From an uncultured Saprospiraceae bacterium (GTDB lineage: Bacteria; Bacteroidota; Bacteroidia; Chitinophagales; Saprospiraceae): 64,000 bases of DNA. The stretch is from contig CALFUU010000052.1 of assembly GCA_937929835.1 (NCBI GenBank), forward strand, positions 1-64,000. The letters are read 5' to 3'. The notes under the pieces were generated by a model, which ran no database searches, was not told the DNA's origin, and worked only from the letters and a program-made list of their open reading frames with translations. The position numbers were made by a program, and so were the translations under genes. This document shows positions 51-44,405 of this stretch, one piece after another; positions within the stretch are counted from its first letter, which is position 1, and the number at the start of each line of letters is the position of its first letter.

Positions 51-68
51 AATGCCTTATTCAAAGAG

Positions 69-140
69 TAGCCCGTACGGGATTCGAACCCGTGCTACCA
101 GGATGAAAACCTGGCGTCCTAACCCCTAGACGAACGGGCC
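69..140 (-). tRNA. tRNA-Glu (anticodon UUC)
   Basis: The minus strand folds as a complete cloverleaf: a 7-bp acceptor stem beginning GGCCCGU, a D arm with GGGGUUAGGA, a 5-bp anticodon stem (CCAGG/CCUGG) around the loop UUUUCAU, and a T arm with GGUUCGAAUCC. The anticodon at loop positions 34-36 is UUC, reading GAA/GAG. The discriminator base is A and the 3' CCA is not encoded, so it must be added after transcription. A perfect TAnnTTTG box lies upstream and a hairpin terminator downstream, so it looks like a single-gene unit. Confidence 0.96.
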
Positions 141-155
141 AAAATTTAGATATCT

Positions 156-171
156 GCTTAGCGCTCTAAGC
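156..171. repeat. Small perfect hairpin in tRNA-Glu leader
   Basis: GCTTAG and CTAAGC form a 6-bp perfect inverted repeat with a 4-base loop. It sits between the -7 box at 177-184 and the tRNA 5' end at 140, so it would be in the 5' leader of the pre-tRNA. It lies past the end of the upstream protein gene but has no T-run, so it is not a good terminator. Confidence 0.4.
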
Positions 172-176
172 GGATG

Positions 177-184
177 CAAATATA
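177..184 (-). promoter_or_regulatory. -7 box TATATTTG of tRNA-Glu
   Basis: Perfect match to the Bacteroidota -7 consensus TAnnTTTG on the minus strand. The expected transcription start is near 170, about 30 bases before the mature tRNA. No clear -33 TTG was seen. Confidence 0.55.
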
Positions 185-229
185 TAAATTTTGTCATTTG
201 CAGTAAGTGTTTTGCAAAATCTGTACCTA

Positions 230-2638
230 TTATTTTATTACTACTCGTGTACTGCGTGATAAGCCTGATACCGTATCTATTAATAGGGTGTAAGCTCCTG
301 ACTCTAAGTCACTTACGTCTATTTTTGTTTTGTTGCCATTTTGTAAGACTAATTGTCCTAGGCTATTGTAGAGACTTATACGTTCTATTTCCTCCTCTGT
401 AGAAGAGATATTTAAGATATCATCTGCAGGATTTGGAAATACTCTAATGAAGTCTAACTCAGACAGCTCCTCAGTACTAATAGAGTTAGCTTCTACTACT
501 TTAAATACATCCACAGCAGCTTCTACAAGGTGACCTGGATCATCATCAGCAGCGGTATAACTTATTGTTATAGGCTGTGTCATATCAAGGCCAGTTTCTT
601 CAATATTGAATCTTAAGACATCTGTCCAATCTCCTGTACTTGCATTGGTGCCTGCAGCTGGATCTGATCTAAACTCAGTTAATAGAACGGTACTCAGACC
701 ATCTGTCAGCTCTACTGTAATGAAGTCGTTGGGTGCACCTCCGTTACCACCGGCATTGAAAAAGTAAGTTCTGAATTCAACTACTGGGTTGTCATATCTA
801 TCTAAGATTATGGCTGGAGAAGTCAACGTTGTTGCACCATCATCAATATCATCAGCACCGCCACCTCCTGGGCCATTTCCAGTGACATAAGCAATTTCAC
901 CAATATCACCTTCAATATCTTGACCTATAGCTGATGGTTGCCCTTGGAACACAGTACCACTGGGTACTTCTCGTACCCAAGCACCTGTGGGTGCATTGCC
1001 ATCGACAGTCCAGCCCAAGTCTAATACAAAATCATCCATATAACCGAAATCCAGTCTAAATATCGGCTCATCTGTTACTGGATTAAAGGTCGTCAGCACT
1101 CTATGCTCATATCCCCAAGCAGCAACAATAACCTCATAGTCTTCTTCAAAAGTCTCCAACAAAAAGGCACCACTTGCATCGCTATCGGCTTCAAATACTC
1201 TTTGACCTGCAGTGAAGACGAGTTGTGCATCAGGGATGCTAGCACCTGTCTCAGCGTCTATGACCATACCAGAGACAGTCGCTCTATTAGGCTGTGTCAG
1301 TTCTACATCTAGAATTGTCAATTCGCCATTAATAAGCTCTACATTATCAATCTCTAGTGTATTGTATAATGGATGAGTAAATTGGACTGTGTACGTTCCA
1401 GCTTGTGCTAGACCAGTCTTATAATTTCCGGCTACATCTGAGCTGGTATTAATATCAGTGTCAATAATCGTGATGGAGGCATCATTTATATTCGTTCCGT
1501 CTACTGCGCTAACAACGTTTCCTTCTAGGTAACACGCTCTCTGATAGGTAGGTCTAAAGATGTAAAGACCTGTATTGATATCATTAGCTAATATTAGTCC
1601 TGAAGGTAACCAAGGATGTACTCCCCAGCAGCCACTAAATCCGCCATCTGGACCCAAAAAGGTATCATAAGCACCGACCTTGATCATATTGTCTGGTCTA
1701 GAGACATCGGTAATCACAACACCATCTGTGTACCAAGAAGTGACGACGTAGCCATCGATATAATGCGTATTGTGTGGGATAACCCCATTGCCAGCTGTTT
1801 CTGCTGGTTGGAAGAGATCTAGTCTTCTAATATTGGTCGGATCAGACACATCATAAGAATCTACAAAGGCATTACCTCTTTCATCTGTCGTAAATACATA
1901 ATTCTGATCATCAGAAACCCAAGCATTGTGTGTGAAATTAAATGAAGTATTGACAGCACCTAATTCTACAATATTGGCTTTATCGGTGACATCGAAAAGA
2001 GCCAATCGACCTACATTAATCTCTGAGCTGTACATAATATTATTTTTCACCATAAGATCATGTGCATAATCAGCTCCATTGTCCCCGTGCGCACCGACTA
2101 CTGGAGGTGTCCATGGATCAACATTGAGGTCAAATATGACCGCCTTATTCATTCCTGTACTGCAACCAGCTAAGTAAGCAAAGCCATTTTCGTCAATAAA
2201 GATGTTATGACATGAGGCTAAAGTCAGCAGTCCATTATTGGTCATTACTTCTGGATTCAGAAATTGGAATCTAATAGAATCACTATCAGATACTTCTGAC
2301 ATGTCTATTACGAGAAGCCCATCTCCTGCATTGTCCGCAGATACATAGACATAATCGCCCCAGTTTTTCATATCTCTCCATGTCGTTTGATCCCCTGGGA
2401 TAGCAATGATTTCTCTCGGAGCGGTAGGGTCGCTTAGATCATAAATTCTTGTTGAACGCGTAGTACCTACAATCGCATATTCAGTTCCATTAGAATGCTC
2501 AAACCCCCATATATCATTACCACTTTCGTTGTTGATATCTGTATAGTCCATTTGACCAACAAGTTCTAGATTGAAATTTTCTTGTCCTTGGAGAAAGGCT
2601 GCAGTAAAGCAGAGCACCAATGCGTAAAATAGCTTCAT
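230..2638 (-). CDS. Choice-of-anchor B family protein, T9SS-secreted
   Basis: An 802-residue secreted protein of unknown substrate. The start chosen at 2638 opens directly into a signal peptide (MKLFYALVLCF...LQGQ); the longer ORF adds 14 residues that overlap the promoter region. Residues ~15-370 form the choice-of-anchor B region, a beta-propeller of LVIVD-like repeats (visible as ...ARLALFDVTD, ...VVITDVSRP). Two carboxypeptidase-regulatory-like beta-sandwich domains follow (~380-550), then a jelly-roll-like region (~555-720), then a type A sorting domain (VFPNPADD...LYNSLGQ...) at the C-terminus that directs T9SS export and cell-surface anchoring. A TACTTTTG box and an inverted repeat lie just upstream. 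Domain names are from family knowledge; function in the cell is unknown. Confidence 0.88.
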   Translation of the reverse strand: MKLFYALVLCFTAAFLQGQENFNLELVGQMDYTDINNESGNDIWGFEHSNGTEYAIVGTTRSTRIYDLSDPTAPREIIAIPGDQTTWRDMKNWGDYVYVSADNAGDGLLVIDMSEVSDSDSIRFQFLNPEVMTNNGLLTLASCHNIFIDENGFAYLAGCSTGMNKAVIFDLNVDPWTPPVVGAHGDNGADYAHDLMVKNNIMYSSEINVGRLALFDVTDKANIVELGAVNTSFNFTHNAWVSDDQNYVFTTDERGNAFVDSYDVSDPTNIRRLDLFQPAETAGNGVIPHNTHYIDGYVVTSWYTDGVVITDVSRPDNMIKVGAYDTFLGPDGGFSGCWGVHPWLPSGLILANDINTGLYIFRPTYQRACYLEGNVVSAVDGTNINDASITIIDTDINTSSDVAGNYKTGLAQAGTYTVQFTHPLYNTLEIDNVELINGELTILDVELTQPNRATVSGMVIDAETGASIPDAQLVFTAGQRVFEADSDASGAFLLETFEEDYEVIVAAWGYEHRVLTTFNPVTDEPIFRLDFGYMDDFVLDLGWTVDGNAPTGAWVREVPSGTVFQGQPSAIGQDIEGDIGEIAYVTGNGPGGGGADDIDDGATTLTSPAIILDRYDNPVVEFRTYFFNAGGNGGAPNDFITVELTDGLSTVLLTEFRSDPAAGTNASTGDWTDVLRFNIEETGLDMTQPITISYTAADDDPGHLVEAAVDVFKVVEANSISTEELSELDFIRVFPNPADDILNISSTEEEIERISLYNSLGQLVLQNGNKTKIDVSDLESGAYTLLIDTVSGLSRSTRVVIK

Positions 2639-2677
2639 TTTAAATATTAACCTGATTAATAATGTATTACCAAACCA

Positions 2678-2685
2678 CAAAAGTA
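2678..2685 (-). promoter_or_regulatory. -7 box TACTTTTG of choice-of-anchor B gene
   Basis: Perfect TAnnTTTG on the minus strand, 39 bases before the chosen ATG. Its position inside the longer ORF supports the start at 2638. Confidence 0.6.
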
Positions 2686-2691
2686 CAATTA

Positions 2692-2718
2692 TCTATGTAG
2701 TCTATAGGTCTACATAGA
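2692..2718. repeat. Inverted repeat overlapping promoter, possible operator
   Basis: TCTATGTAG and CTACATAGA are a perfect 9-bp inverted repeat with a 9-base spacer that contains CTATAG, itself palindromic. It covers the region from about -20 to -45 of the minus-strand promoter at 2678-2685, where a regulator could bind. It could instead be a weak hairpin after the neighbouring menI-like gene (stop at 2741), but that gene reads the same way and would not need a terminator there. Confidence 0.45.
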
Positions 2719-2740
2719 CGTACATACCGACATTTGCGAC

Positions 2741-3166
2741 TTATGATTTTGATAAGACCATCGTCGTTAATCTAGATATACAGATGTTTTTTCCGGCTTC
2801 ATCAGCTATAGCGATATTCCATACATGCATCCGTCTCCCTATTTTAATAGGCGTCACCTTGCCTATGACATACCCTTCCTTTGCGGAGCTGAGGTGGTTG
2901 GCATTGATTTCTACTCCGACGATAGGCGTTTCGAGTGGATTGTCGACCAGACATACCGAGGCCACAGATCCCAAGGTTTCTGCTAGGCTCACAGAGGCTC
3001 CACCATGGAGCAGCCCCATAGGCTGCTTGGTTCTCTGATCGACTGGCATAGTGGCTATCAGGTAATCTTCTCCGATTTCAGTAAACTCTATACCTAAGTG
3101 TTGTACAAGAGTTTGATGGCCACTGGCATTGAGCATTTCTAGTGTAGGATTATGTTTCCAGAGCAT
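2741..3166 (-). CDS. menI: Hotdog-fold acyl-CoA thioesterase, MenI/YdiI-like
   Basis: A 141-residue single hotdog domain, the usual length for the family. It closely follows E. coli YdiI/MenI along its length: MLWK start, ATMPVDQRTKQP, GLLHGGASVSLAE, INANHLSSA and SRLTTMVL. The active-site acid is Glu63 in the LAE motif, with His54 just before it. MenI hydrolyses 1,4-dihydroxy-2-naphthoyl-CoA in menaquinone synthesis, in the cytoplasm. Menaquinone is the usual quinone of Bacteroidota, which fits, but no other men gene is nearby and YdiI-type enzymes accept other acyl-CoAs, so the exact substrate is inferred. Divergent from the ArsC-like gene. Confidence 0.85.
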   Translation of the reverse strand: MLWKHNPTLEMLNASGHQTLVQHLGIEFTEIGEDYLIATMPVDQRTKQPMGLLHGGASVSLAETLGSVASVCLVDNPLETPIVGVEINANHLSSAKEGYVIGKVTPIKIGRRMHVWNIAIADEAGKNICISRLTTMVLSKS

Positions 3167-3170
3167 AACT

Positions 3171-3178
3171 TATTTTCG
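3171..3178 (+). promoter_or_regulatory. Near-consensus -7 box TATTTTCG of arsC-like gene
   Basis: Seven of eight positions agree with TAnnTTTG (C for T at the seventh). It lies 26 bases before the ATG at 3205, and would be inside the coding region if the GTG at 3178 were the start. Confidence 0.35.
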
Positions 3179-3204
3179 TGTCTTATTTTAATGAATACGA
3201 ACAT

Positions 3205-3543
3205 ATGGAAATATACCACAACCCTAGATGTAGAAAGAGTAGAGAAACCTTACAACTCTTAGAAGACAAAGGGCATAAACCTCAGATTGTCTTATATCTC
3301 GATAAGCCACCTACCAAAACCAAACTGAAGTCCATACTCAAAATGCTTGGCATCAAGGCGCAAGATCTCGTCAGAAAAACGGAATCTATCTACAAAGAAC
3401 AGTTTAAAGGAAAAACCTTAACGGAAACGGAGTGGATAGATGCCCTTATCGATTATCCTAAGCTCATAGAAAGACCTATAGTTATTAATGGCGATAAGGC
3501 AGCCTTAGGGAGGCCTCCAGAGCAAGTCTTGGAGATTCTTTAA
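3205..3543 (+). CDS. arsC: ArsC/Spx-family thiol reductase (arsenate reductase-like)
   Basis: 112 residues, a typical length for glutaredoxin-coupled ArsC. The start at 3205 gives MEIYHNPRCRKS, the normal N-terminus of the family; a longer GTG start at 3178 would overlap the probable promoter. The catalytic cysteine lies in NPRCRKS. KFRKxE-type RK contacts are seen as LVRKTE, and the conserved RP(I/V) and GRPPE near the C-terminus support the arsenate-reductase branch. Members reduce arsenate to arsenite with glutathione/glutaredoxin, but many Bacteroidota members have no known arsenic role and no arsenite exporter gene is close. The 3' end overlaps miaA by 4 bases, convergent. Confidence 0.82.
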   Translation: MEIYHNPRCRKSRETLQLLEDKGHKPQIVLYLDKPPTKTKLKSILKMLGIKAQDLVRKTESIYKEQFKGKTLTETEWIDALIDYPKLIERPIVINGDKAALGRPPEQVLEIL

Positions 3544-4454
3544 TTATTAGATCCATTCTCCGTAAACTGTGTAATGGTCTCTTTGACCTTATCAATCTCG
3601 TCAGGATGAAAGTGCTGGCCGTCAATTTGATTTCTAAACCAAGTCATCTGTCGCTTGGCATATCTTCGAGAGTTTTTCTGGATTTCTGATACGGCTTCAT
3701 CGAGACTATAGACTCCTTCCATGTGCTTAAATAATTCTTGGTAACCGACACTCTGAAGTGCTTTCAGATGTCTATGCGCCCATAACCCCCTGACTTCTTC
3801 TTCCAGACCTAGTTCTATCATCTGATGCACTCTCAGATTGATGCGTTGATACAGCTCTTCTCTTGGTCTATCTAGGACGATATACAGAGTCTCAAAGTTG
3901 CGCGGCGCCTTCTTGTTGAGATAACTACTAAAGGGCTGGCCAGTTTCTCTTATAACAGAAAGGGCTCTGACAACGCGGTGGGTATTTTGAGATTCTATTT
4001 GATTGAAGTAGATGGAATCTTTTGTTTCTAATTCGTGCACAAGGGCAGGGTAGTCCTCTGTAGCTTGTTGATTCAACTTTGCAATCGTCTCTGGTAGAAC
4101 GGACGGTATCACATCCAACCCTTCAGCTACTGCTTTCAGGTATAAGCCAGTCCCCCCGCTCAGCACGGGTACTTGACCTTGAGCAAAGGCGGGGGTGATG
4201 ATGTCCATCGCCTGTTTTTCGTAGAGCCCTGCGTGATAAGGCTCTTCGATACTCCAATGGTTGACCAACTGCAAGTCCAATGCCTTGATCTCATCATCTG
4301 AGGGCTTGGCTGTACCTATAGACATCTCTTTATAGACTTGACGGCTGTCTGCAGATAGGACTGGACCTCTATTTTCTTTAAAGAGTTCTAGGAGCAAGGT
4401 GCTTTTGCCGACGGCAGTAGGTCCTGTGATGATGATGAGCTTCGGTGTATTCAA
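3540..4454 (-). CDS. miaA: tRNA dimethylallyltransferase MiaA
   Basis: 304 residues, full length. Adds a dimethylallyl group to N6 of A37 in tRNAs that read UNN codons. Visible motifs: P-loop GPTAVGKS (residues 11-18), the catalytic-acid segment SADSRQVY (Asp36), IGTAKP, LSGGTGLYLKA, and the C-terminal RRYAKRQMTWFRN basic segment that holds tRNA. The start is a TTG: the first in-frame ATG lies past the P-loop, and the upstream frame closes at a TAA about 75 bases away with no ATG. A second gene of the same modification pathway, miaE, lies 42 kb away. Confidence 0.97.
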   Translation of the reverse strand: MNTPKLIIITGPTAVGKSTLLLELFKENRGPVLSADSRQVYKEMSIGTAKPSDDEIKALDLQLVNHWSIEEPYHAGLYEKQAMDIITPAFAQGQVPVLSGGTGLYLKAVAEGLDVIPSVLPETIAKLNQQATEDYPALVHELETKDSIYFNQIESQNTHRVVRALSVIRETGQPFSSYLNKKAPRNFETLYIVLDRPREELYQRINLRVHQMIELGLEEEVRGLWAHRHLKALQSVGYQELFKHMEGVYSLDEAVSEIQKNSRRYAKRQMTWFRNQIDGQHFHPDEIDKVKETITQFTENGSNN

Positions 4455-4767
4455 GTTGACCTGTTGGATTTGGCTGTATAAAGGTATTTCTAGGATGCCA
4501 AGATAAGGATTGTACCCTAGCCACCAACCTTAGCACTTTAGCAAATCCATCTTCAATCAGAAATTCTATTACTTGAAACATTAGAAGCATCCTATTATTG
4601 TAATTCTCATTTTGTACTTGTCATTTTGGATATTCAATAGCAAACTACGGAATTATGAATCTTAGATAAAAAGAACATGCTTCGCAGAAATGATTATTGA
4701 AGCTTATACAATCGCACGCGGTTGACATTAAGCGAATCCCTCGTATATTAGTTATCAATCAACTGAT
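4455..4767. other. 313-bp intergenic region between miaA and iaaA
   Basis: Divergent spacer. It holds the candidate promoter of the asparaginase gene near its right end. A 70-codon minus-strand frame crosses into miaA but shows no family signal. No RNA gene or terminator was recognised. Confidence 0.6.
4722..4751 (+). promoter_or_regulatory. Candidate promoter of iaaA-like gene
   Basis: TTGACA at 4722-4727 and TATATTAG at 4744-4751 (seven of eight to TAnnTTTG), with a spacing that suits the Bacteroidota -33/-7 pair. The ATG follows 16 bases later. Confidence 0.4.
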
Positions 4768-5802
4768 ATGAAAGCACATTACCTTTTCCCTATCCTTGCC
4801 ATCTTGATTTCTTGTAATAGTCCATTGAGTCCTATTCCAAGAGAATCAGAGCCTACAAAAAGTACCCAATCTGAGTATGCTCTCGTCATACACGGAGGAG
4901 CGGGAACGATACTCAAGAAGAATATGACAGCTGAGTTGGAGCAAGCATATACGGCTAAGATGAACGAAGCACTGGATCTGGGGGAGGGTATCTTGAATCA
5001 AGGTGGTACAAGCCAAGCAGCCGTCGTAGCCGTCATCCAGTTACTGGAAAACTCTCCACTCTTCAATGCGGGCAAAGGGGCTGTCTTTACCAATCAAGGC
5101 ACTAATGAGATGGATGCTTCGATTATGGATGGCAAAACACTTAATGCGGGAGCGGTAGGTGGAGTAACCAATATTAAAAATCCGATCACAGCTGCCCTTG
5201 CTGTTATGGAGCATTCCGATCATGTATTTATGGTCGGAAAAGGGGCGGAAGAATTTGCTAAACTACAAAGCTGTCAGACTGTCGATCCCAGTTACTTCAG
5301 AACAGACAGAAGATGGAATAGTCTACAACGTATCAAAGAAAAGGAAGCCACAGAAGCAAAAAAGAATTTAACTGAATTATCAGAAAGTAAGCACGGCACA
5401 GTAGGCGCGGTAGCATTGGACAAAGCTGGAAATATCACTGCTGGCACTTCTACAGGCGGTATGACCAATAAGCGATACAATAGAGTAGGAGACAGTCCCA
5501 TAATTGGAGCAGGCACTTACGCTGATAATGAGACTTGTGGAGTCTCTTGTACAGGTCACGGAGAGTATTTTATCAGATATGCAGTGGCTTATGATGTCTC
5601 TGCTGCAATGCGTCACGGCGGCAAGGATCTAATATCAGCTAGCCAAGATGTTATCCACGGCAGAATGAAACACGCTGGAGGTACTGGAGGTCTGATTGCT
5701 CTAGATAAGAAGGGCAATATCTCTATGCCATTCAATACGGCTGGTATGTATAGAGGCTATGTCACTGATAATGAACGAGTTGTGAAAATATATGGAGATT
5801 AA
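4768..5802 (+). CDS. iaaA: Isoaspartyl peptidase/L-asparaginase (Ntn hydrolase), lipoprotein
   Basis: 344 residues. An N-terminal-nucleophile hydrolase of the plant-type asparaginase family that cleaves isoaspartyl dipeptides and asparagine after autoproteolysis. The nucleophile is Thr211 in KHGTVGAVA, exposed when the chain is cut between Gly210 and Thr211. STGGMTNK, RVGDSPIIGAG and GHGEYFIR are the usual substrate-site motifs. The N-terminus is a lipoprotein signal (hydrophobic stretch ending LISC, Cys16), so the enzyme should sit in the envelope, not the cytoplasm. It stands alone, between miaA and the YfhO gene. Family is certain; the balance of the two activities is not visible. Confidence 0.93.
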   Translation: MKAHYLFPILAILISCNSPLSPIPRESEPTKSTQSEYALVIHGGAGTILKKNMTAELEQAYTAKMNEALDLGEGILNQGGTSQAAVVAVIQLLENSPLFNAGKGAVFTNQGTNEMDASIMDGKTLNAGAVGGVTNIKNPITAALAVMEHSDHVFMVGKGAEEFAKLQSCQTVDPSYFRTDRRWNSLQRIKEKEATEAKKNLTELSESKHGTVGAVALDKAGNITAGTSTGGMTNKRYNRVGDSPIIGAGTYADNETCGVSCTGHGEYFIRYAVAYDVSAAMRHGGKDLISASQDVIHGRMKHAGGTGGLIALDKKGNISMPFNTAGMYRGYVTDNERVVKIYGD

Positions 5803-5851
5803 TGAACGATAACTTTCTAGTCAATGATGGTGATCTTCTATTAAATTAAAA

Positions 5852-5859
5852 TAGATTTG
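5852..5859 (+). promoter_or_regulatory. -7 box TAGATTTG of yfhO-like gene
   Basis: Perfect TAnnTTTG, 27 bases before the ATG at 5887. Confidence 0.5.
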
Positions 5860-5886
5860 TAAAACATTGATTACTAGTAACCTATT

Positions 5887-8292
5887 ATGGATCATCTAAA
5901 GAAATATGCAGTTCACTTAGCTGCTCTAGTCGTATTCTTTTTCTGCGCTTTCATTCATTTTCAGCCAGCTTTCCAAGGTAAGAAACTCCAACAAAGTGAT
6001 ACACTCCAGTGGAAGGGAATGGCACAAGAGGCTAAAGCATATGAAGAGAAAACGGGTGAGTCCTCCTTATGGACCAACTCGATGTTTGGAGGGATGCCAA
6101 CCTACTACATATGGTTCAAGCAAGCCAATGGCCCTATAGACTATGTTAGAAAGATTTTGAGTCTAGGCTTTACCAATGAAGTGGGCAAGTTTATGACAGG
6201 AATGATTTTGTTCTACATCCTTTTATTACTTCTCAAAGTCAATGCGTGGCTAGCAATGTTTATGGCCCTAGCTTTTGCTTTTGGTACTAATAATCTGGTC
6301 TTGCTCAATGCAGGACACAATACCAAGATAGCCACATTGATGGCCAGCCCACTGATCATTGCTGGAGTGCTCTTGGCTTATCGGAGCAAGTATCTGTTAG
6401 GGACTATTGTATTTACGCTAGGGATGTCCATCAACTTAAAATCGCAGCACCCACAGATGACCTACTATCTGGGATTGGTTTTGATGATCTATGTTCTTGC
6501 AGTGTTTATTAATAAGATAAAGTCTGGTGAGTTAGTGGATTTTGTCAAGGCTTCAGGCTTCTTAGCGATTGGCTTATTACTGGCAGTTGGTACAACAGCC
6601 AATAAGACACTACCGATCTACGAGTACTCTAAAGATACTATGAGAGGTGCGCCCATACTCCAGCAAACATCTGGCAATGGAAGCAGTAGTGAGGTAGATG
6701 GTTTGGCTTGGGATTATGCTATGAACTGGAGTAATGGATCTGAGGACTTATTACAGAGTTGGATTCCACTAGCCAATGGGGGTTCTACTTCAGAACCCTT
6801 AGATAGTGATTCTGGATTTGCGAAAGTGCTGAGGAAAAATAATATTCCTTCTCGCAGTATACGACCACCAATGTACTGGGGGAGTCTCCCATTTACCAGT
6901 GGACCGATTTATTTTGGAGCTATTATTTTCTTTCTCTTTTTTATAGCTCTATTTACGTATAAGGACACGATTAAGTGGTGGGTTCTGTCAGCTGCTGTAC
7001 TTACCTTTCTCTTATCTATGGGTAAGAATTTTGAATTTCTAAATCGACTATTTTTTGATTATTTCCCCTATTACAATAAGTTCAGGACGCCTAACTCTAT
7101 ACTCTCAGTGACGGCAATTATAATTCCTCTGTTAGCCGCACTTGGTCTACAGAGTCTGGTAAATTTGAAGGAATTACCACTCAAAAAAACATTGATAGCG
7201 GGTGGGGGATTTATCCTCTTTACTGTTTTCATAGGGTTCGTAGGTCCAGGCATTTTTGATTTAAGTTCTTCCGGTGATGCCCGACTCGCTCAGAATGGAT
7301 TCGATATAGATGTACTCATTGACGATAGAGCATCTATGCTGCGTTCGAGTGCGCTGCGTTCTGCGTTTTTGATGTCTATTTGTCTAGCCGCCATATGGGC
7401 TTATGCAAAAGGTTATATCAATAAAATCATTCTTTTTGTTGTTGTAGGCGTCTTTTCATTCGGGGATTTGTATCTCACCAACCTCCGATATGTGAGTTCT
7501 GATAATTATGTATCCGAAAGAAGGTATCAAGCCAATTATACACCGAGACAAGTAGATAAGCAGATCTTGTCAGACCCTGATCCACATTACAGAGTCTTGG
7601 ACAGTAGTGCCAATACTTTTAATTCTTCATTTGCCAGTTATTTCCATAAGTCTATAGGCGGATATCACGCTGCGAAATTGCAAAGGTTCCAAGATATCAT
7701 TGATTACCACATTGTCAAAAACAACAATAAGGTGCTCAATATGCTGAATACCAAATATGTCATTTCTGGTTCTCCTCAAAAAGAACAAGTTGGACTTAAT
7801 TCTGCTGCTCTTGGAAATGCTTGGTTTGTCAATTCTGTCAAGTTTGTCAATACGCCAGACGAAGAAATCCAGATGTTAAATGACTTTGATCCTCTAGGAG
7901 AGGCCATTGTCCACAAGGAATTCAAAGATGTCCTTAAGTCAAGTACGCAGTATGATAAAAGCGGCAGCACAATTAACCTCTCAGAATATAAACCCAATAA
8001 ACTAACCTATGCTGTCAATGCTAATGGTAACCAATTGGCCGTGTTTTCAGAAGTATGGTATGGACCTGATAAAGGATGGAATGCATACATCGACGGTCAA
8101 GCAGTGGATCATATAAGAGCCAATTATATACTGAGAGCCCTTGAGATACCTAGTGGTCAGCATACGGTTGTCTTTGAGTTTGAGCCTAAGAGTAATAAGA
8201 CAGGGCTTCTTATCAGTATGATTTCTAGTCTTATCTTTCTCTTGCTTAGTGGTTATTTTTTCTGGACAGAATACAAGAGAATAAAAGCATAG
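5887..8292 (+). CDS. YfhO family polytopic membrane protein
   Basis: 801 residues with roughly a dozen hydrophobic helices spread from residue 8 to ~545 and one more close to the C-terminus (LLISMISSLIFLLLSGYFF), and a large soluble region at ~550-765. The family (DUF6044/YfhO) belongs to the GT-C-like membrane proteins; a Bacillus member is linked to glycosylation of surface polymers. The early segment LQWKGMAQEAKAYEEKTGE and GGMPTYY are typical of the Bacteroidota branch. The start is supported by a TAGATTTG box 27 bases upstream. pyrR follows after 34 bases but has its own -7 box. The transferred sugar and acceptor, if any, cannot be read from sequence. Confidence 0.82.
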   Translation: MDHLKKYAVHLAALVVFFFCAFIHFQPAFQGKKLQQSDTLQWKGMAQEAKAYEEKTGESSLWTNSMFGGMPTYYIWFKQANGPIDYVRKILSLGFTNEVGKFMTGMILFYILLLLLKVNAWLAMFMALAFAFGTNNLVLLNAGHNTKIATLMASPLIIAGVLLAYRSKYLLGTIVFTLGMSINLKSQHPQMTYYLGLVLMIYVLAVFINKIKSGELVDFVKASGFLAIGLLLAVGTTANKTLPIYEYSKDTMRGAPILQQTSGNGSSSEVDGLAWDYAMNWSNGSEDLLQSWIPLANGGSTSEPLDSDSGFAKVLRKNNIPSRSIRPPMYWGSLPFTSGPIYFGAIIFFLFFIALFTYKDTIKWWVLSAAVLTFLLSMGKNFEFLNRLFFDYFPYYNKFRTPNSILSVTAIIIPLLAALGLQSLVNLKELPLKKTLIAGGGFILFTVFIGFVGPGIFDLSSSGDARLAQNGFDIDVLIDDRASMLRSSALRSAFLMSICLAAIWAYAKGYINKIILFVVVGVFSFGDLYLTNLRYVSSDNYVSERRYQANYTPRQVDKQILSDPDPHYRVLDSSANTFNSSFASYFHKSIGGYHAAKLQRFQDIIDYHIVKNNNKVLNMLNTKYVISGSPQKEQVGLNSAALGNAWFVNSVKFVNTPDEEIQMLNDFDPLGEAIVHKEFKDVLKSSTQYDKSGSTINLSEYKPNKLTYAVNANGNQLAVFSEVWYGPDKGWNAYIDGQAVDHIRANYILRALEIPSGQHTVVFEFEPKSNKTGLLISMISSLIFLLLSGYFFWTEYKRIKA

Positions 8293-35267: not shown

Positions 35268-37346
35268 TTAGTTTTGCGGTAGCAACTCATTTATTATTCT
35301 ATCTGCTTTATAAATATATTTCATAGCAGCATAGATTCCACCAGCGTGAACTGAGACAGATCTATTGGATTCTTCGTCATAGATAAAGTTGCCAGGTAGG
35401 GACTCTATATTGCCATCAAAAATGAGCCCAACTGCTTCTCCTTTCTGATTAATAATCGCACTTCCTGAATTTCCGCCAATTATATCATTAGTCGATACAA
35501 AATTTAATGGTGATCGGAGCAATTCAGATGGCGGATTCATCCATTTGTCTGGAAGAGCCCAAGGGAAGATGCCAGCATTGGAGTAATGTCTATCGTACAT
35601 TCCATAATATGTTGTCATAATCGGTGCAGTAGTACCATTGTAATCATATGACTTGACGAGCCCATCACTAATCCTCAGTGTAAAGGTTGCATCTGGAGGT
35701 AGAGAAGTCCCAAAAACATTAAAAGCTTGGTTGGCTATTTTTGTTTCTAGTGATCTTCTATAAGCTGATGATGCGCTGAAAGCCTCATTGGCCTCTTGAT
35801 ATCTGTTGACCATTGTTTCAGACGCTTTTATCATAGGATCCTTTAGCTTGGTAATCTTTTTATCTTTTGACAAAAGCTTTTCTACACCTCGTCTATCTTT
35901 TAAAAATGTAGAGTTTTGAAACAGATTATTCACAAATCCATCAACTGTCATGCCATTGAGCATTCTTGTAAGTGTATTATCACCTTGATAAATATTGCTC
36001 TTTACTTCGTTTAGAAGGACGGTGAGCAGTTGTTTTTCCTTGTCTTTATCTAAGGCTTCTGTTAATCCTAGAATGGATTCTTTGGCCGCTGTTATCTCTG
36101 CCTCTTCAGCTTTATTCTCCACTAAAGCTTTGTACCTAGCTACTTCGTGCATCAAGAGAAAGGCATTACCTCTCAGAGCGGATTGGCCTAGAAGGTTAAT
36201 CGCCCATGCATGAGGATTTAGCTTCTCATATTCATTGGATAACTCATCCCAGTAGTCCAGATCTCCAGAACTAGCTTTTATTTTTTCCTCCATTGCTTCT
36301 TTCCGACCCATAAATTTTGAGTTATGTAGACCGCCCATTATGCCTGTATAGGCTTTTATAGAGTTACTTAGGTTGTTGATAGTACTTAACAATTCTTGTG
36401 CTTGTCTCACCATACCAGCTTCGTCTTTCATTACATTGTAATCTACAAGCATCATATCCCTTCTGTTGGTTAACCATGTCAATAGATGTTTGAATCGGTA
36501 ATCTCTATCAAATTCTAGTTGAGCTACCGTTCTGTAACGCTCTGTGCGCCCCGGGTTCCCTATAACGAATACAGGAGTACCTTCTTCAATGCCGTCGATA
36601 TTGAACTTGTAATAGTTCTCCGATGTATTTAACGGGTTGCCATTTTCATCATAAGCTCTCCAGAATGTACAATCTAGATTATACCGTGGAAACGTAAAGT
36701 TGTCAGGATCTCCTCCATAAAAGCCTAAGTCATTCTCAGGTATAAGTACTAACCTGATATCGTCATACTTCTTATAACCGTATAGGGAGTATTTGCCTCC
36801 AGAATAAAAAGAAACAGTTTGGAGTCTTAGACCTGCCCACTCAGCTTTCTGTTCATATTCTGCTTGTATAGTTTTGAGCATTTCTTGGGCTTTAACTAGC
36901 GCATCGTTGTCGTCAGCAGCCATAGACTTAGCTTTGAGAACACGTGCAGTAATATCTTCGATCTTGATCAGCTGTTCTACAAATAAGTCATCGACTCTTC
37001 TTTCGTCCTCTAACTGCTTGGCATAATAGCCGTTTTTATCAAAATTTTCATTGCCCTGCTGAACTGATATAGCAACATCTCTGCTACAGTGGTGATTGGT
37101 CATAATAAGACCATCTGGTGACACAAAACTTGCGGAACACCAAGATGCAAAGCGTAATGATGACATCCTGACGTCATCAAACCAAGCTTGATCAACTTCC
37201 ATATCATAAGCTTCCTTGAACCATTCTGTTGGTGGCTGTTCAAATGTCCACATTCTACCAAAATCATAGGGTGATACCTCTTCTTGTGAGAAGGAGGGTA
37301 GACTAATCGAAATAAATAAACCAATAAAGAGTAACTGTATTTTCAT
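35268..37346 (-). CDS. S46-family dipeptidyl peptidase (DPP7/DPP11 type)
   Basis: 692 residues, usual length. Signal peptide MKIQLLFIGLFISISLPSFS. Chymotrypsin-fold halves hold the catalytic His in IMTNHHCS (~85-86) and Ser in IIGGNSGSAI (~627); FDGNIESLPGNF is the family's conserved C-terminal segment. S46 enzymes release dipeptides from peptides in the periplasm of Bacteroidota. The residue that sets specificity (Gly in DPP7, Arg in DPP11) falls in SVHAGG; the glycine here favours DPP7-like preference for hydrophobic side chains, but I could not align this exactly. Works downstream of the extracellular proteases also encoded here. Confidence 0.93.
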   Translation of the reverse strand: MKIQLLFIGLFISISLPSFSQEEVSPYDFGRMWTFEQPPTEWFKEAYDMEVDQAWFDDVRMSSLRFASWCSASFVSPDGLIMTNHHCSRDVAISVQQGNENFDKNGYYAKQLEDERRVDDLFVEQLIKIEDITARVLKAKSMAADDNDALVKAQEMLKTIQAEYEQKAEWAGLRLQTVSFYSGGKYSLYGYKKYDDIRLVLIPENDLGFYGGDPDNFTFPRYNLDCTFWRAYDENGNPLNTSENYYKFNIDGIEEGTPVFVIGNPGRTERYRTVAQLEFDRDYRFKHLLTWLTNRRDMMLVDYNVMKDEAGMVRQAQELLSTINNLSNSIKAYTGIMGGLHNSKFMGRKEAMEEKIKASSGDLDYWDELSNEYEKLNPHAWAINLLGQSALRGNAFLLMHEVARYKALVENKAEEAEITAAKESILGLTEALDKDKEKQLLTVLLNEVKSNIYQGDNTLTRMLNGMTVDGFVNNLFQNSTFLKDRRGVEKLLSKDKKITKLKDPMIKASETMVNRYQEANEAFSASSAYRRSLETKIANQAFNVFGTSLPPDATFTLRISDGLVKSYDYNGTTAPIMTTYYGMYDRHYSNAGIFPWALPDKWMNPPSELLRSPLNFVSTNDIIGGNSGSAIINQKGEAVGLIFDGNIESLPGNFIYDEESNRSVSVHAGGIYAAMKYIYKADRIINELLPQN

Positions 37347-37693: not shown

Positions 37694-40600
37694 ATGAATT
37701 ACCGCAATTTGATGACCAAGTTCTTAGCTATTGTAGCTATATGTGGCTTTTCAAACTTAACTCTAGCCGATGGGGGAGACTTCTCCACCTCGACTGTCCA
37801 TTTTAACTTAGATGCTTGTTCATCTTTTATTACACAAGGGACTAATAGTGACTACAGTGAATTTACAGCCTCAATTGATAATGCAGCTTCTTGTTTGCAA
37901 TTAGATGTTGTCGGTGGAAATCTCTACAGAGTGTCACCAATGATAAACCCCCACTCGTGTACTGAGGGTATTAATGGATCAAACGCCATGTGTGTGAGTT
38001 CATTAGCTACTTGTGGTTATGATGCAGGGAATATGAGATCCGTGAAATTCGACTTATTGGTAACCCCAGGGTCTGACGGAACTGGTACTCTGAGCGGCTT
38101 ATCTTTTTACGAACAAGCTCCAGAAACATACTCTTGGATACAAGGTCCTACGGGACTTAACAATTATCCTACACAATATGGTGTAAGGGTACTCAGAGAT
38201 GGTGCTGAGATATGGAGAAGCGAGGATAATGCTACAACAACTGGATGGACTCTAGAGTCTTTCAGTTTTACAAGCGAAGATTTTACAGTAACAAGTCCAG
38301 CTACATTTACCTTTGAGTTTCTAGGCTATTGCACAGTTGGCAATGGATCTACTGTTACAGCTTGGGATTTGGATGAAATATCTGTACAAGCTAGTTGTGG
38401 AGATCCAATAGATGGAGGTAACCTAACACTTTCAGGTGGTATTATGAACACATCAACTTGTGTTGGATTGGGTACAAGTGATCCGATAGAAACAGTTCTT
38501 ACAGGTGCTGTTGGTCCTAACTCAGGTTATATCATTACAGATTTAGATGGTAATATTTTAGGATTACCTACCGCACCTCCGTTTGATTTTGAAGGTGCTG
38601 GTACTGGTGCTTGCCTTATCTGGCACGCTTCATTTACTGGTACATTGACTGGTCTTACTGTCGGCGCCAATGCAGCAGATATTGAAGGATGTTTTGATTT
38701 ATCTAATAGTGTTAGAGTGGATAGATTTACTGCTGATGGTGGTACAATTTCTACACCTAACGGCAGTGCTATCTGTGCTACTGGTAATAACTTATTAGAT
38801 GTTTCGGTAAGTGGAGTAATAGGATCTTCAAGACTCTTAATAACAGACTTAAATGGAAATATATTAGCACTTCCTTCTGGTTCACCAGTTGATCTTTCTA
38901 ATATCAATGCTTCAGAGTGTTTGGTCTGGAATCTTGGATTCAATGGTAATATCAATGGTCTTGCTGTTGGTCAGAATGCCAATAACCTGACAGGAACTTG
39001 TTTCAGTTTGTCTAATGCGATATCAGTTTCCAAAACAGTCGTTGATCCAGGCGTATTGTCTACAAACGGTGTGACATTTGTAAATATTTGTGAGGGTAAT
39101 GGTACATCAAACATTATCAATACCACTCTTAATGATGTTCAGGGTAATGCACAACTGATATTAACAGATGCGAATGGAAATATTATAAATTCAAATCTCT
39201 CATCTCCAGTAGATTTTTCTGGTTTTGATTCAGCTACTTATTTCATCTATAATGTGGCCTATGATGGAAACATCAATGGTCTTACCAATGGTGCAAATAT
39301 CAATGGTCTTTCAGGTGATTGTGTAGGTTTATCTAATTCTATAGAAATAGAAAAGGAGAGTGCTTCAGGAGGTACAATCAGCTCTTCTATGGGTTCTGAT
39401 TTCGAACTATGTATCGAGGGAGTTGTATCTGATCCTATTGATGTGTCACTAAGTGGCGCCGAAGGCGCATTTAGTAGATGGGTCATCACGGATGATAATG
39501 GTGTTATTATAGCACTACCTGGTCCACCACCTTTCAATCTTGACCCAGTAGTAGGTGACGTATGTAACATATGGCACCTTGGATTCGAAAGTTCTTTCAC
39601 AGGACTTTTTCTCGGACAAAATGTATCTGCATTTACGGGTTGCTTTGGTTTGTCTAACAGCATAAGAGTTACAAAAAGATCATCAAGTGCCGGTAGAATA
39701 AGTGCCAATGGTGGTTTTACCTTTATAGATGTTTGTGGCACAGGTAATCAAACTGTTAATGTCAACTTACTCAATAACTTCGGAGAAAATCAGACTTGGG
39801 TAGTTTCTGATCCTAATGGAATGATCCTGAGTGTTGGTGGAGGTCCAAATTTCGATTTTAGTAGCTTCCCACTAGGAGAGTACAGAATAAATCATATTTC
39901 CTATTTCTCTGGAGCAGCTCCACAAGTAGGCGGTAATATCAATACACTAACTGCTGACTGTCTCGATGTATCCAATCAAATGGTGATCAACAAGACAGAT
40001 CCAGTTGGCGGTACGATAAGTTTCCAAGGTGGTACAAGCCTGTCTGTATGTGGAGATGGTCAAGCTGATAATATCAATGTTACTATCGCAGGTAACCAAG
40101 GAGGCTTTATGAGATGGTTGGTTACAGATGCCAACGGTAACATCCTTGCTCTACCTGGTAACCCACCTTTCAATTTTGAAGGTCTACCAGAAGGTGTCTG
40201 TTTCTTATGGAACTTAAGTTTCGAAGACGGTATAAGTGGCCTTTCAGTAGGCGCAAACGTTAGCGGGCTTACAGGCTGTGCTAGTCTTTCTAACTCTATC
40301 GAAATAACTAAGAAATCTATAAGTCCTGGTTCTGTATCTTTACCAGACGGCAGCGTGAGCATTGGTATCTGTCTAGAAGATGACATGTCTAATGAAGTTG
40401 ATGTTGTTCACTCAGGAGCTAATGGAAATAATGGTGAATTTGTCATTACTGACGATTCAGGAAATATACTTGGTGTAGGACCATCATTTCCGTTTGATTT
40501 CACTCCTGCTGGCCCAGGCATATGCAGAGTTTATTTTGTAAGTTATGATGATATCACTGGTCTACAGATGGGTGGTACAATAGCTGGACTAGATGGGTGC

Positions 40601-42568
40601 TTTGCAGTTTCTAACTTTGTAACTGTATCTAGGAGTGTATCTAATGGAGGTACTATCAGCCTCGATGGAGGAGCTACGACAACTACTATATGTGTTGGAG
40701 AAGGAACCTTAGACCAGATCAATGTAAATATTGGAGGAACACAATCTGGAAACATCAATAGATGGATAATTACGGATGCAGATGGCAACATTTTAGGTCT
40801 TCCAAGTGCACCTCCTTTCAATTTTGAAGGGGCGGGTCCTGGAGTATGTTCTATATATAACGTTAACTATTCTGGTTCTCTTACTGGATTAGCTATGGGC
40901 GCAAACATAAGTGATCTGGAAGGATGCTTTGACTTATCTAACAGAGTTACTGTTAATAGAGTAACGATAGATAATTCTTCTAGTACTTCAACCCTGACAT
41001 ATAATATGAACGCTTGTAATGCTCAGAATGCAGGAACAGGTGGGTCTGACTACACAGAGCTTACTGGAATTGCAAATAATAGTGGTTCTTGTTCTACACT
41101 TTCTGGTGGTCACATATTTAGAAATAACCCTACGGTTAACCCTCATTCATGTACACCAGGTCTAAATGGTTCTACCGCAGTATGTGTGAGTTCATCTACA
41201 AGTTGTGACTTTATTGCAAACAGTGATTTGGCTGTTAGATTTGATGTTACTGTCGACCCTGCAGCCAACGGTGTAGGACAATTGACTAGTGTTAGTTTCT
41301 ATGAAGCGGCACCAACAATGTTTAATTGGATAAATGGATCTTCTGGACCGAACAACTATCCGACTAGATATGGTATCCGAGTATTGAAAAATGGAACTGA
41401 AGTATTCAGACAAGTTGGTATTGCCACATCTAATGACTTCTCTCTAGAAAGTTTCAATTTCTCTAATAACCCAGAGTTTTCAGTTACAACTGCCACAACA
41501 TTCTCTTTCGAATTGCTTGGGTATTGTACTGCTGGCATTAATTCTACTGTAACGGCTTGGGATATAGAAGATCTTGTAATAACATCTCAATGTCCTGGTG
41601 GTCTTAGTGGTGGTGATATAACACTTTCCAATGGCGCTACTGCAGGAAGCACTACAATAGACGTATGTGTTGATGATGGCATAAATGAAGATATCACTGT
41701 CAATCTTGTAAATGCAGCGGGTCCTAATATGACTTATGTTATTACAGATAGTGATTTAAATATTTTGGCATTACCAATGTCTCAGCCATTCAACTTTGAA
41801 GGCGTACCACCAGGAGTTTGTTTGATATGGAACTTGGCTTTTGTAGATGGTCTAACTGGCGCATCTGTAGGTGCGAATGCGGCTAACCTATCAGGTTGCT
41901 TCTCTCTATCTAATCCGATCACAGTGAATAGATTTGTTGGTGATGATTGTCCAGATCCATTTGTGTCTGGAGGAAACCTAACAAGCTTAAACGGATTTGT
42001 AGCTGAGGAACTATGTGTAACAGATGGTGAGTCTGACTTAATTGATGTGCAACTGACAGATGCTGCGGGCACACACTCTGCTTGGGTAATAACGAATGCC
42101 GATCACGTAATAGTGGATATGCCTTCTGGATTTCCTATTGATGTGGAGGGTAGTGCTGTAGGAACTTCTTACCTCTATCATATCAGTTATGTAGGTGCCT
42201 TGAGCAATATGGCTGTAGGTAACGAACTCAGTATGATAGAAGGACTGCATGCCTTCTCAAATGCTCTAATCATCAACAAAGTGGATTGTAATGTAACAGA
42301 GTCTGTAAGAGAGTCTATAGACAGATTTCCTACTGATTTCAGTGTTTATCCTAATCCTGCTAATAATGCAGTCACAGTTGCAGCTAATGCAGTTAATTCA
42401 ACTGTTTCTACAGTAGAAGTATTTGATACCTTTGGTCAGTTAGTTGGATCATACCAATTGACAACCAAAGATGTAAGCATTGACTTAACAGAATACCCTG
42501 AAGGTTATTATCTAGTGAAAGTAAGCTCAGGAGGAAACTCTTACAGCAGAAGCTTTATCAAGATATAA
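37694..42568 (+). CDS. Large T9SS-secreted repeat protein (ten ~107-residue repeats)
   Basis: 1624 residues; repeat family not recognised by name. Layout: signal peptide 1-25; module M (31-236) with cysteines and VNPHSC/INPHSC; repeats 1-8 (~237-1096); a second module M (~1097-1300) with the same landmarks (NPHSC, FYE.AP, NNYPT.YG.RVL, ELLGYCT, VTAWD); repeats 9-10 (~1301-1536); a type A T9SS sorting domain (VYPNPANN...). Each repeat runs: GGTIS, a first cysteine (ICVGxG), V(I/V)TDxxGNILALP, PFxFEG, GxCxIWxLxF, GLxxGxN, GCFxLSNxIxVxK. Repeat 10 has lost the last two cysteines. Probably a surface adhesin or scaffold; ligand unknown. Preceded by a -7 box and closed by a strong terminator, so it is a single-gene unit. 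Confidence 0.9.
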   Translation: MNYRNLMTKFLAIVAICGFSNLTLADGGDFSTSTVHFNLDACSSFITQGTNSDYSEFTASIDNAASCLQLDVVGGNLYRVSPMINPHSCTEGINGSNAMCVSSLATCGYDAGNMRSVKFDLLVTPGSDGTGTLSGLSFYEQAPETYSWIQGPTGLNNYPTQYGVRVLRDGAEIWRSEDNATTTGWTLESFSFTSEDFTVTSPATFTFEFLGYCTVGNGSTVTAWDLDEISVQASCGDPIDGGNLTLSGGIMNTSTCVGLGTSDPIETVLTGAVGPNSGYIITDLDGNILGLPTAPPFDFEGAGTGACLIWHASFTGTLTGLTVGANAADIEGCFDLSNSVRVDRFTADGGTISTPNGSAICATGNNLLDVSVSGVIGSSRLLITDLNGNILALPSGSPVDLSNINASECLVWNLGFNGNINGLAVGQNANNLTGTCFSLSNAISVSKTVVDPGVLSTNGVTFVNICEGNGTSNIINTTLNDVQGNAQLILTDANGNIINSNLSSPVDFSGFDSATYFIYNVAYDGNINGLTNGANINGLSGDCVGLSNSIEIEKESASGGTISSSMGSDFELCIEGVVSDPIDVSLSGAEGAFSRWVITDDNGVIIALPGPPPFNLDPVVGDVCNIWHLGFESSFTGLFLGQNVSAFTGCFGLSNSIRVTKRSSSAGRISANGGFTFIDVCGTGNQTVNVNLLNNFGENQTWVVSDPNGMILSVGGGPNFDFSSFPLGEYRINHISYFSGAAPQVGGNINTLTADCLDVSNQMVINKTDPVGGTISFQGGTSLSVCGDGQADNINVTIAGNQGGFMRWLVTDANGNILALPGNPPFNFEGLPEGVCFLWNLSFEDGISGLSVGANVSGLTGCASLSNSIEITKKSISPGSVSLPDGSVSIGICLEDDMSNEVDVVHSGANGNNGEFVITDDSGNILGVGPSFPFDFTPAGPGICRVYFVSYDDITGLQMGGTIAGLDGCFAVSNFVTVSRSVSNGGTISLDGGATTTTICVGEGTLDQINVNIGGTQSGNINRWIITDADGNILGLPSAPPFNFEGAGPGVCSIYNVNYSGSLTGLAMGANISDLEGCFDLSNRVTVNRVTIDNSSSTSTLTYNMNACNAQNAGTGGSDYTELTGIANNSGSCSTLSGGHIFRNNPTVNPHSCTPGLNGSTAVCVSSSTSCDFIANSDLAVRFDVTVDPAANGVGQLTSVSFYEAAPTMFNWINGSSGPNNYPTRYGIRVLKNGTEVFRQVGIATSNDFSLESFNFSNNPEFSVTTATTFSFELLGYCTAGINSTVTAWDIEDLVITSQCPGGLSGGDITLSNGATAGSTTIDVCVDDGINEDITVNLVNAAGPNMTYVITDSDLNILALPMSQPFNFEGVPPGVCLIWNLAFVDGLTGASVGANAANLSGCFSLSNPITVNRFVGDDCPDPFVSGGNLTSLNGFVAEELCVTDGESDLIDVQLTDAAGTHSAWVITNADHVIVDMPSGFPIDVEGSAVGTSYLYHISYVGALSNMAVGNELSMIEGLHAFSNALIINKVDCNVTESVRESIDRFPTDFSVYPNPANNAVTVAANAVNSTVSTVEVFDTFGQLVGSYQLTTKDVSIDLTEYPEGYYLVKVSSGGNSYSRSFIKI
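38405..42300 (+). repeat. Diverged in-frame repeats, unit about 320 bp
   Basis: Ten units begin near 38416, 38740, 39047, 39369, 39692, 40009, 40325, 40645, 41611 and 41969. A non-repeat insertion at about 40981-41593 is itself a second copy of the sequence at about 37785-38400 at protein level. The units differ by many substitutions, so this is old duplication, not recent tandem copying. Confidence 0.88.
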
Positions 42569-42665: not shown

Positions 42666-44405
42666 ATGAAGAACTCAAGTCTCCTTAACGCTAACGATAC
42701 AGCCAAACACAAAGCTTTGCTGAATAATGCTGTGAGTACTCTATTGCAGATTACTCAAAAAATTGATCATAAGGAGCTTGAAAAAACTGTAACCGATATA
42801 AAGGAACGCATAGATGATCCATTTATGTTTGTCATTGCTGGTGAGGTAAAGGCTGGAAAAAGTAGTTTTATCAATGCACTCCTTGATGCTAATAAGGAGA
42901 TATGTAAGGTTGCAGCCTCTCCTATGACCGATACTATACAGCAAATAGTCTATGGTGAAAAAGAGTCTATTACAGACATCAATGAATACCTTAAGCGTAT
43001 TACCCAACCCGTAGAAATTCTTAAAGAAATTGCAATCGTTGATACACCTGGAACAAATACGATTGTAGATCATCATCAAGAGATAACTGAGAGATTTATC
43101 CCTTCATCGGATCTGATTGTTTTTGTTTTTGAGTCTAAGAACCCTTACCGCCAGTCTGCTTGGGACTTCTTTGAGTTTATTAAAGATGAGTGGAAAAAGA
43201 AAATTATTTTCATTCTCCAACAGAAGGATCTGATGGTGCCTGAGGATTTGGTAACTAACATAAATGGGGTAAAAGAGTATGCAGTGAAACAGGGTATTAA
43301 AGATCCGAAGGTCTTTCCAGTTTCGGCCTTAATGGAACTCAATGGTGAAAAAGAAGAAAGCGGTTTCAAGCCAGTGAGGAAATATATACAAGACAATATT
43401 ACGGGTGGTAAAGCTCCTTTTTTGAAAATTCTTAATAATGCAGAAACTGCATTAAATATTAATGATAAGATTTACAAAGGTGTAATCATACGCAAAGAGC
43501 AGTTTCAATCTGACTCCAGATTTAGGACAGATATCCGCGATACTTTAGATAAGCAAGAGGAAAAGACAAAGCGCCAAGTAGATCAATTGGTAGAAAATCT
43601 ATTGGCCAGTTATGATAGAATTACCAATAAGAAAAAGGAGAAACTTAAGGGAGGAGTCGGTGTTGTCTCGATGCTTAGAAGATCCATCTCTTCAAAATTT
43701 GGCAAGACAAAAAGTCCCAAAGAATGGTTTGATGCCTTGGCTGCTGATTTGGAGAAAGACCTCAATACAGAATTTAAGGACAAGCTTAGAGAAGGTGTTG
43801 TTGACATAGCAGATAGTATCCAAACTATGGGTAAACTAATTGATGCTAAGATCAAGAACAGTGAGACAATCTTAAAAGACAATCACGAAATATTTAGTGA
43901 TATCGCGGAGCGCAGAGCCAATGTGTTGAGAGACTTGCAAGAGACATTTTCTGGTTTTCTTAAGTCGTCTGAGAACTTCTATAATAGAGAACTAATCCAC
44001 GGTGCAGATGATATAGCGCCTAATCTTGCCAAGGGTGGCGGTATAGCCATAATTGGGATGATCCTTACAACATTGACAAGTACAATTGCTCTAGATGTGA
44101 CAGGGGGTATCTTGACCGCAATAGGATTTGTTTTTGCTGGGGTGACTGTTGGCCTCAATAGGAGTAAAATTATTAAGGGGTACGAAACAGAAGTTGCGAA
44201 TGGTAGAGAACGCATCAAGGAGGAGATTACTATAAAACTCAATGAATACACTACCAAAATCAAGAATAGAATCAATGACAACTTTGTAAGATTCGATCAG
44301 CTTTTGGAAGAAGAACAAAAAACCATTACCTATCTAGAAGAAGAACATCACCGGATTACTGCAGAGATTTCTCAAGTGAAACAAGAAGTAGCTCAGATGG
44401 TCTAA
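42666..44405 (+). CDS. Bacterial dynamin-like GTPase
   Basis: 579 residues. G domain with P-loop GEVKAGKSSFIN (59-70), switch I Thr in SPMTDT, DTPGTNT (126-132) and LQQKD in place of the usual TKxD base-recognition motif. A helical stalk follows (~250-450), then a paired hydrophobic segment at ~455-495 (IAIIGMILTTLTSTIAL and ILTAIGFVFAGVTVGL) that should act as the membrane paddle, and a C-terminal coiled coil (EEEQKTITYLEEEHHRIT). Bacterial dynamins remodel or repair membranes; some protect against phage or antibiotics. Here it is a single gene without the usual second dynamin. Role in this organism is unknown. Confidence 0.9.
   Translation: MKNSSLLNANDTAKHKALLNNAVSTLLQITQKIDHKELEKTVTDIKERIDDPFMFVIAGEVKAGKSSFINALLDANKEICKVAASPMTDTIQQIVYGEKESITDINEYLKRITQPVEILKEIAIVDTPGTNTIVDHHQEITERFIPSSDLIVFVFESKNPYRQSAWDFFEFIKDEWKKKIIFILQQKDLMVPEDLVTNINGVKEYAVKQGIKDPKVFPVSALMELNGEKEESGFKPVRKYIQDNITGGKAPFLKILNNAETALNINDKIYKGVIIRKEQFQSDSRFRTDIRDTLDKQEEKTKRQVDQLVENLLASYDRITNKKKEKLKGGVGVVSMLRRSISSKFGKTKSPKEWFDALAADLEKDLNTEFKDKLREGVVDIADSIQTMGKLIDAKIKNSETILKDNHEIFSDIAERRANVLRDLQETFSGFLKSSENFYNRELIHGADDIAPNLAKGGGIAIIGMILTTLTSTIALDVTGGILTAIGFVFAGVTVGLNRSKIIKGYETEVANGRERIKEEITIKLNEYTTKIKNRINDNFVRFDQLLEEEQKTITYLEEEHHRITAEISQVKQEVAQMV

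Follow-up and report, generated by a model that had tools for sequence, protein, structure and literature searches.

What kind of protein is built from two copies of one unnamed module and ten copies of a second unnamed unit, and how did a gene with this plan arise? The question is raised by an open reading frame (37694–42568, + strand, ATG start; product 1624 residues) in a stretch of 64,000 nucleotides from an uncultured Saprospiraceae bacterium, hereafter the window. An earlier note on this DNA had given the coordinates, the length and the order of units, all of which proved correct against the reading frame and the alignment: a signal-like segment is followed by the module M (M1), eight repeats R (R1–R8, residues 241–1089), a second M (M2), R9, a short linker, R10 and a C-terminal tail of the type IX secretion system (T9SS) kind (Table 1). 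The ten repeats and the duplicated module are also real, with every unit far above shuffled sequences. M1 recovered M2 at 207 bits, compared to 8.3 bits for the best of 1000 shuffles, and each R was found at 72–133 bits by a profile of the other nine, compared to 14.6 bits or less in 1000 shuffled versions of each.

Table 1 Features of the M–R gene and its two neighbours, in window coordinates.
Feature	Residues	Coordinates	Strand	Basis
Signal-like segment	1–25	37694..37768	+	Hydrophobic N-terminus, called by eye in the translation
M1 (first module M)	26–240	37769..38413	+	Identity with M2; jelly-roll model
R1		38414..38737	+	Alignment; leave-one-out 124.3 bits; part of R1–R2 model
R2		38738..39046	+	Alignment; leave-one-out 95.6 bits; part of R1–R2 model
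R3, without middle cysteine		39047..39367	+	Alignment; leave-one-out 91.0 bits
R4		39368..39688	+	Alignment; leave-one-out 111.7 bits
R5, without middle cysteine		39689..40006	+	Alignment; leave-one-out 72.1 bits
R6		40007..40324	+	Alignment; leave-one-out 128.6 bits
R7		40325..40645	+	Alignment; leave-one-out 101.3 bits
R8		40646..40960	+	Alignment; leave-one-out 132.5 bits
M2 (second module M)	1090–1305	40961..41608	+	Alignment; clusters with the second M of orthologues and apart from M1
R9	1306–1413	41609..41932	+	Alignment; leave-one-out 120.0 bits; clusters with orthologue R1 and R8 repeats
R10, first cysteine only	1426–1529	41969..42280	+	Alignment; leave-one-out 83.3 bits
Type A T9SS C-terminal sorting domain	1551–1624	42344..42565	+	PF18962, TIGR04183
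Peptidase_S46 neighbour, divergent		35268..37346	-	PF10459, E 7.2e-154; homologue at 7/9 orthologue loci
Dynamin-family GTPase neighbour		42666..44405	+	PF00350, E 1e-16; homologue at 5/9 orthologue loci

Module M spans about 205 residues, with 46% identity between M1 and M2 in the alignment, and neither the window protein nor 72 M copies from relatives yielded a credible Pfam or NCBIfam match; SGL, which reached a best E of 0.0057 in lone M copies, was dropped as inconsistent between members. An AlphaFold2 model of M (mean pLDDT 97.7, pTM 0.93) confidently predicts a jelly roll, similar to those of CBM4, CBM22 and MAM domains. The best Foldseek match was CBM4-2 of a Rhodothermus xylanase (E 8.6e-6, with TM-scores that are low, 0.39–0.49, and an identity of 10–15%), and the same domain headed the VIA comparison (Z 11.6, 3.3 Å over 151 residues). 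It was followed by a CBM-like domain from the B components of clostridial binary toxins, CBM22, meprin MAM, CBM16 and a Kgp adhesin domain, and Stig cyclases appeared among the matches of both Foldseek and VIA. We read these structural matches as pointing to a common fold, with nothing beyond it implied.

At the level of sequence profiles, M is a member of neither CBM_4_9 nor Cleaved_Adhesin. Compared with 14 Saprospiraceae CBM_4_9 domains (PF02018) it reached an hhalign probability of 0.6%, and CBM_4_9 was absent from the Pfam matches of the 72 copies at E ≤ 1; for 15 Saprospiraceae Cleaved_Adhesin domains (PF07675) the probability was 17.5% only, and this family was likewise absent from the Pfam matches of the 72 copies. 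M shares its predicted jelly-roll fold with CBM4/CBM22-type modules such as CBM4-2 of the Rhodothermus marinus xylanase (3jxs, 4bj0, 1k42), but it is longer, carries up to seven conserved cysteines and has no sequence-profile relation to them; in the proteins scanned, no glycoside hydrolase catalytic domain was recognised. The MAM domains of meprins and the cleaved adhesin of gingipain (Kgp K1, 4itc) fall in the same fold class (VIA Z 9.9–10.8), and Kgp is itself a T9SS cargo. Across the 72 copies, E25, R48, H56, S57, N125, N126 and D194 (model numbering) are invariant or near-invariant.

The repeat R spans about 107 residues, its ten copies being 25–57% identical to one another in the alignment, and again no credible Pfam or NCBIfam match was found in the window protein or in 80 repeat pairs from relatives. 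Neither SprB repeats nor any other named Pfam repeat family was credibly detected, the best E over the 80 pairs being 0.0051 in scattered, unrelated families. Several candidates were set aside as inconsistent between members: SepRS_C, DUF4141 and DUF4988, each in single pairs and with that same best E, and, in NCBIfam, a BapA/Bap/LapF adhesin (E 0.0012) and choice-of-anchor A (E 0.0014), each in one member. A mistletoe lectin match of R profiles (E 0.002–0.004) was judged to be chance because it covers part of a beta-trefoil, whereas the model of R shows an Ig-like sandwich. The AlphaFold2 model of R1–R2 (mean pLDDT 96.4, pTM 0.84) predicts, with high confidence, an Ig/FN3-like sandwich, with FN3-like modules of CbhA as the best Foldseek match (E 4.1e-5). 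The best VIA Z, 8.0, is common to MAdCAM-1 and titin tandems and may reflect a common arrangement and no more; the Foldseek and VIA lists consist mostly of FN3- or Ig-like tandems from adhesion or structural proteins. Comparison of R with the Ig-like T9SS tail gave an hhalign probability of 27.2%, with no supported membership. The earlier proposals that both units are unnamed and that the conserved core of R looks like a folded domain are supported: profile searches of Pfam and NCBIfam placed neither unit credibly in a known family, and both are confidently modelled.

The same note had taken regular cysteines as a sign of disulfide-braced units. The regularity holds, in three columns of R (16, 67 and 93), but it is not uniform, since the middle cysteine is missing in R3 and R5 of the window and R10 retains the first only. 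Among 440 repeats, at least two of the three cysteines are kept in 427, and any of the three can be the absent one; one cysteine or none occurs in 13, compared to 28.8 in shuffles (0/2000 as low), with repeats counted despite their kinship. No repeat keeps the middle cysteine alone (0/440), and the outer cysteines are not lost jointly, so a simple fixed cysteine pair is not supported. The columns suggest disulfides in R, and the odd number of columns, any one of which may be lost, would be explained by a shared three-cysteine cluster or by a cross-link between repeats.

The C-terminal tail matched PF18962 (E 1.3e-13, 51.5 bits, cut-off 27) and TIGR04183 (E 1.2e-11, 44.4 bits, cut-off 23), and the bacterium's own genome contains a SprA_N match (E 5.0e-121) as part of a T9SS machinery, together with about 150 sorting-tail matches. 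Given the sorting domain and the translocon gene, the protein would pass first through Sec and then through the T9SS. Type A cargo is described as being directed to the surface by its C-terminal domain, with PorU cutting before attachment or release (PMC10202324). By analogy with such substrates, the PorU sortase probably removes the C-terminal domain after translocation, leaving the protein surface-linked or released.

Both units belong to a larger family. Searching with M, we obtained 56 loci, 55 with Saprospiraceae titles and one titled 'Bacteroidetes bacterium'. M was present in 40 of 150 Saprospiraceae genomes and in 2/395 genomes across the phylum, one of the two being the bacterium's own; R was present in 33 of 60 relatives and in 9/395 genomes across the phylum, 6 of these 9 outside Saprospiraceae. 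Viral or phage relatives were not found by tblastn in two scans of viral contigs (115 and 185 peptide-pattern stretches). The own genome holds 65 R matches and 7 M matches, in at least five M+R genes: the window gene, those on contigs C86, C91 and C66, and one split across C192 and C22, where the end of one frame and the start of the other (L024, G000:C192; L026, G000:C22) overlap in residues. The C86 paralogue is a 3453-residue frame with 27 R matches; an apparent lamin-tail-like stretch in it had no Pfam match and is not claimed.

Judged from 46 M+R frames, the two domains make up a multi-gene family in which the order, head and then stalk, is strict. In all 45 frames with a visible N-terminus M comes first, before residue 100; a second M occurs in 16/46, and 26 of the 27 complete frames end in a type-A-like tail, the exception (L090) having a type B tail. 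The M-plus-repeat order thus recurs in other Bacteroidota, nearly all of them Saprospiraceae records. These loci were gathered via M, and the counts are therefore silent on R without M. Such genes exist on C170 and C51. The former (L028, G000:C170, frame 1835–6511, +) encodes 1559 residues with 11 distant R, no M and a T9SS tail; the latter (L027, G000:C51, frame 1828–5724, -) encodes a lactonase-like propeller, Spondin_N, one R, a second propeller copy and a T9SS tail, so that R is also used outside M proteins. Conversely, R is missing from 20 further M-bearing frames, some of which include DUF4331, dockerin-like or PKD-like domains; the DUF4331 proteins that contain M at L048 (5298–9839) and L056 (5268–9848) also have matches to dockerin-like, CarboxypepD_reg and T9SS tail domains. 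A C-terminal portion of M also occurs inside a different long secreted protein with many other cysteine-rich repeats (L029, G000:C18, frame 3–3869, -). Tandem adjoining M–R genes were seen at L053 (2844–9224 and 9291–15068) and at L060 (7824–14252 and 14318–16606).

We identified likely orthologues of the window gene at nine loci (L040–L047 and L052). At least one conserved neighbour was present at eight of them, the ninth (L042) being a 4.5-kb contig with too little flank. The numbers of repeats before and after M2 are 8+2 in the window, L040 and L041, 9+0 in L043–L045, 11+1 in L046 and 13+1 in L047; in L042 (8+1) and L052 (11+0) the frames are cut and the counts partial. The plan with two M copies, separated by 8–13 repeats, is old and has been conserved at a single syntenic position, as far as these loci show. 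Compared to L040, the window protein is 90.9% identical with a dN/dS of 0.04, indicating that the gene is under purifying selection; the loosest repeat in this comparison, R1, has a dN/dS of 0.12, and synonymous change is saturated in two repeats. The repeats group by position across species, not within a gene, and are therefore old and not homogenised. Elsewhere in the family, the last two R before the contig end in L023 (G000:C91, frame 3–2708, -) read letter-identical, a sign of recent repeat gain, whereas the window repeats have diverged.

The second M followed by two repeats had earlier been likened to two fused paralogues, a history that the trees of the repeats and M copies do not establish. 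They do separate the M1s of the orthologues from their M2s, yet a tree holding M1s and M2s as a single clade was not rejected (AU p 0.269). In the repeat tree, R9 pairs with R1 (SH-aLRT 80), R8 joins them in a wider set (95), and R10 does not group with R2. This was a quick tree (93 rows, 108 columns) in which 46 of 90 inner branches fall below 80, so the kinship of R1, R8 and R9 constitutes moderate evidence; it fits the copying of an M–R block inside one gene as well as a fusion of two genes of like plan. The M tree, the AU test and the repeat tree do not decide between the two histories.

What the protein does is best explained, in our view, by a fibrillar-adhesin-like T9SS cargo in which M is a binding head and R a stalk, a reading that we consider fairly likely. 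In a study covering Firmicutes and Actinobacteria, fibrillar adhesins are described as large proteins with an adhesive region, a repetitive stalk and a surface anchor, the adhesive domain being mostly N-terminal (PMC9210967). The window protein resembles them in being large and probably secreted, with a putative N-terminal head, a stalk of repeated beta-sandwiches, a C-terminal surface-targeting domain and a variable repeat number; it differs in that no named Pfam family includes its head or its stalk, in having a T9SS tail instead of sortase motifs and in carrying a second head copy near the C-terminus. Its 1624 residues and its ten repeats of predicted folded Ig-like domains match this plan; the sorting domain would lead to either attachment or release, and M, N-terminal in all 45 frames and CBM/MAM-like in its predicted fold, may be the adhesive domain. 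Given this resemblance, and since lectin-bearing T9SS adhesins such as RemA are known (PMC11205867), we read M as head, R as stalk and M2 as a basal second site. The ten R would form a stalk stabilised by disulfides, whose length changes between orthologues via repeat number; M1, at the N-terminus, would serve as the binding head at the far end, for a ligand that may be sugar or protein; and M2, closer to the anchor, may be a second site of the same kind, making a second ligand contact or a contact between molecules. A counterweight to M as a head is that CBM4-like jelly rolls also act as structural parts and as enzymes. More tentatively, M could be a new family of carbohydrate- (or ligand-) binding modules and the M–R proteins Saprospiraceae-specific surface fibres of variable length, with the two-headed member holding heads at tip and base and bridging two ligands or cells.

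Among known T9SS cargo, the gliding and aggregation adhesins SprB and RemA of Flavobacterium johnsoniae are large surface proteins, as the window protein would be, RemA carrying both a lectin domain and a tail of type A (PMC10202324, PMC11205867). The window protein differs from both in having no Pfam match to SprB repeats or to a named lectin family.

An unlikely alternative is that the protein belongs to a structural matrix or sheath, where M makes intermolecular contacts as MAM domains do, R packs into a fibre or layer, and no outside ligand is involved. M resembles meprin MAM as well as CBMs, contacts of a head-to-tail or dimeric kind would fit with two M copies placed at or near the ends of the array, one genome carries at least five M+R genes, and Sap S-layer domains appear among the weak VIA matches of R. 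However, S-layer-like layers usually consist of one or two major proteins, whereas repeat number here varies widely among paralogues (27 R matches in C86), and the frames with M but without R, some joined to DUF4331, dockerin-like or PKD-like domains, better suit a movable binding module. We regard it as improbable that M is instead an enzyme or sensor domain carried on the stalk and more than a passive binder, its invariant polar residues forming an active site or a metal site within a CBM-like fold, as Stig cyclases do. The conservation of these residues and the presence of Stig cyclases in both structural match lists speak for this, but the residues may be structural, and no credible enzyme-family match in Pfam or NCBIfam was obtained for any of the 72 copies.

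Least probable of all, at only a slight chance, is an appendage for catching prey, similar to GhpA, the Aureispira grappling hook protein (PDB 9fly, 9fls, 9flv, 9flx). GhpA comes from Saprospiraceae, and we know of no M-like head in it. It is T9SS-exported and has Ig-like domains, and several of its fragments appear in the structural match lists of R (Foldseek 9fly, E 2.2e-3; VIA 9fls, Z 7.7, and 9flv, Z 7.2), but unrelated Ig/FN3 tandems, titin and MAdCAM-1 among them, score equally high; the structural resemblance goes no further than that to other Ig/FN3 domains, and no GhpA chain occurs among the R-profile matches up to E 10. T9SS-exported hooks are known in ixotrophic predators (PMC11205867).

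The adhesin-like reading places the window protein in a known kind, while neither domain family, nor the fixed order of the two, has a name in the libraries searched, and we found no description of M–R proteins in the open literature, most subscription journals lying outside that scope. Water and sludge communities commonly contain Saprospiraceae, and two domain families without a Pfam or NCBIfam model, with confidently predicted folds, offer direct targets for testing to what these bacteria attach; if M binds sugars, it would constitute a new family of binding modules. The protein appears to belong to a set of surface fibres with which the bacteria may stick to or sense something.
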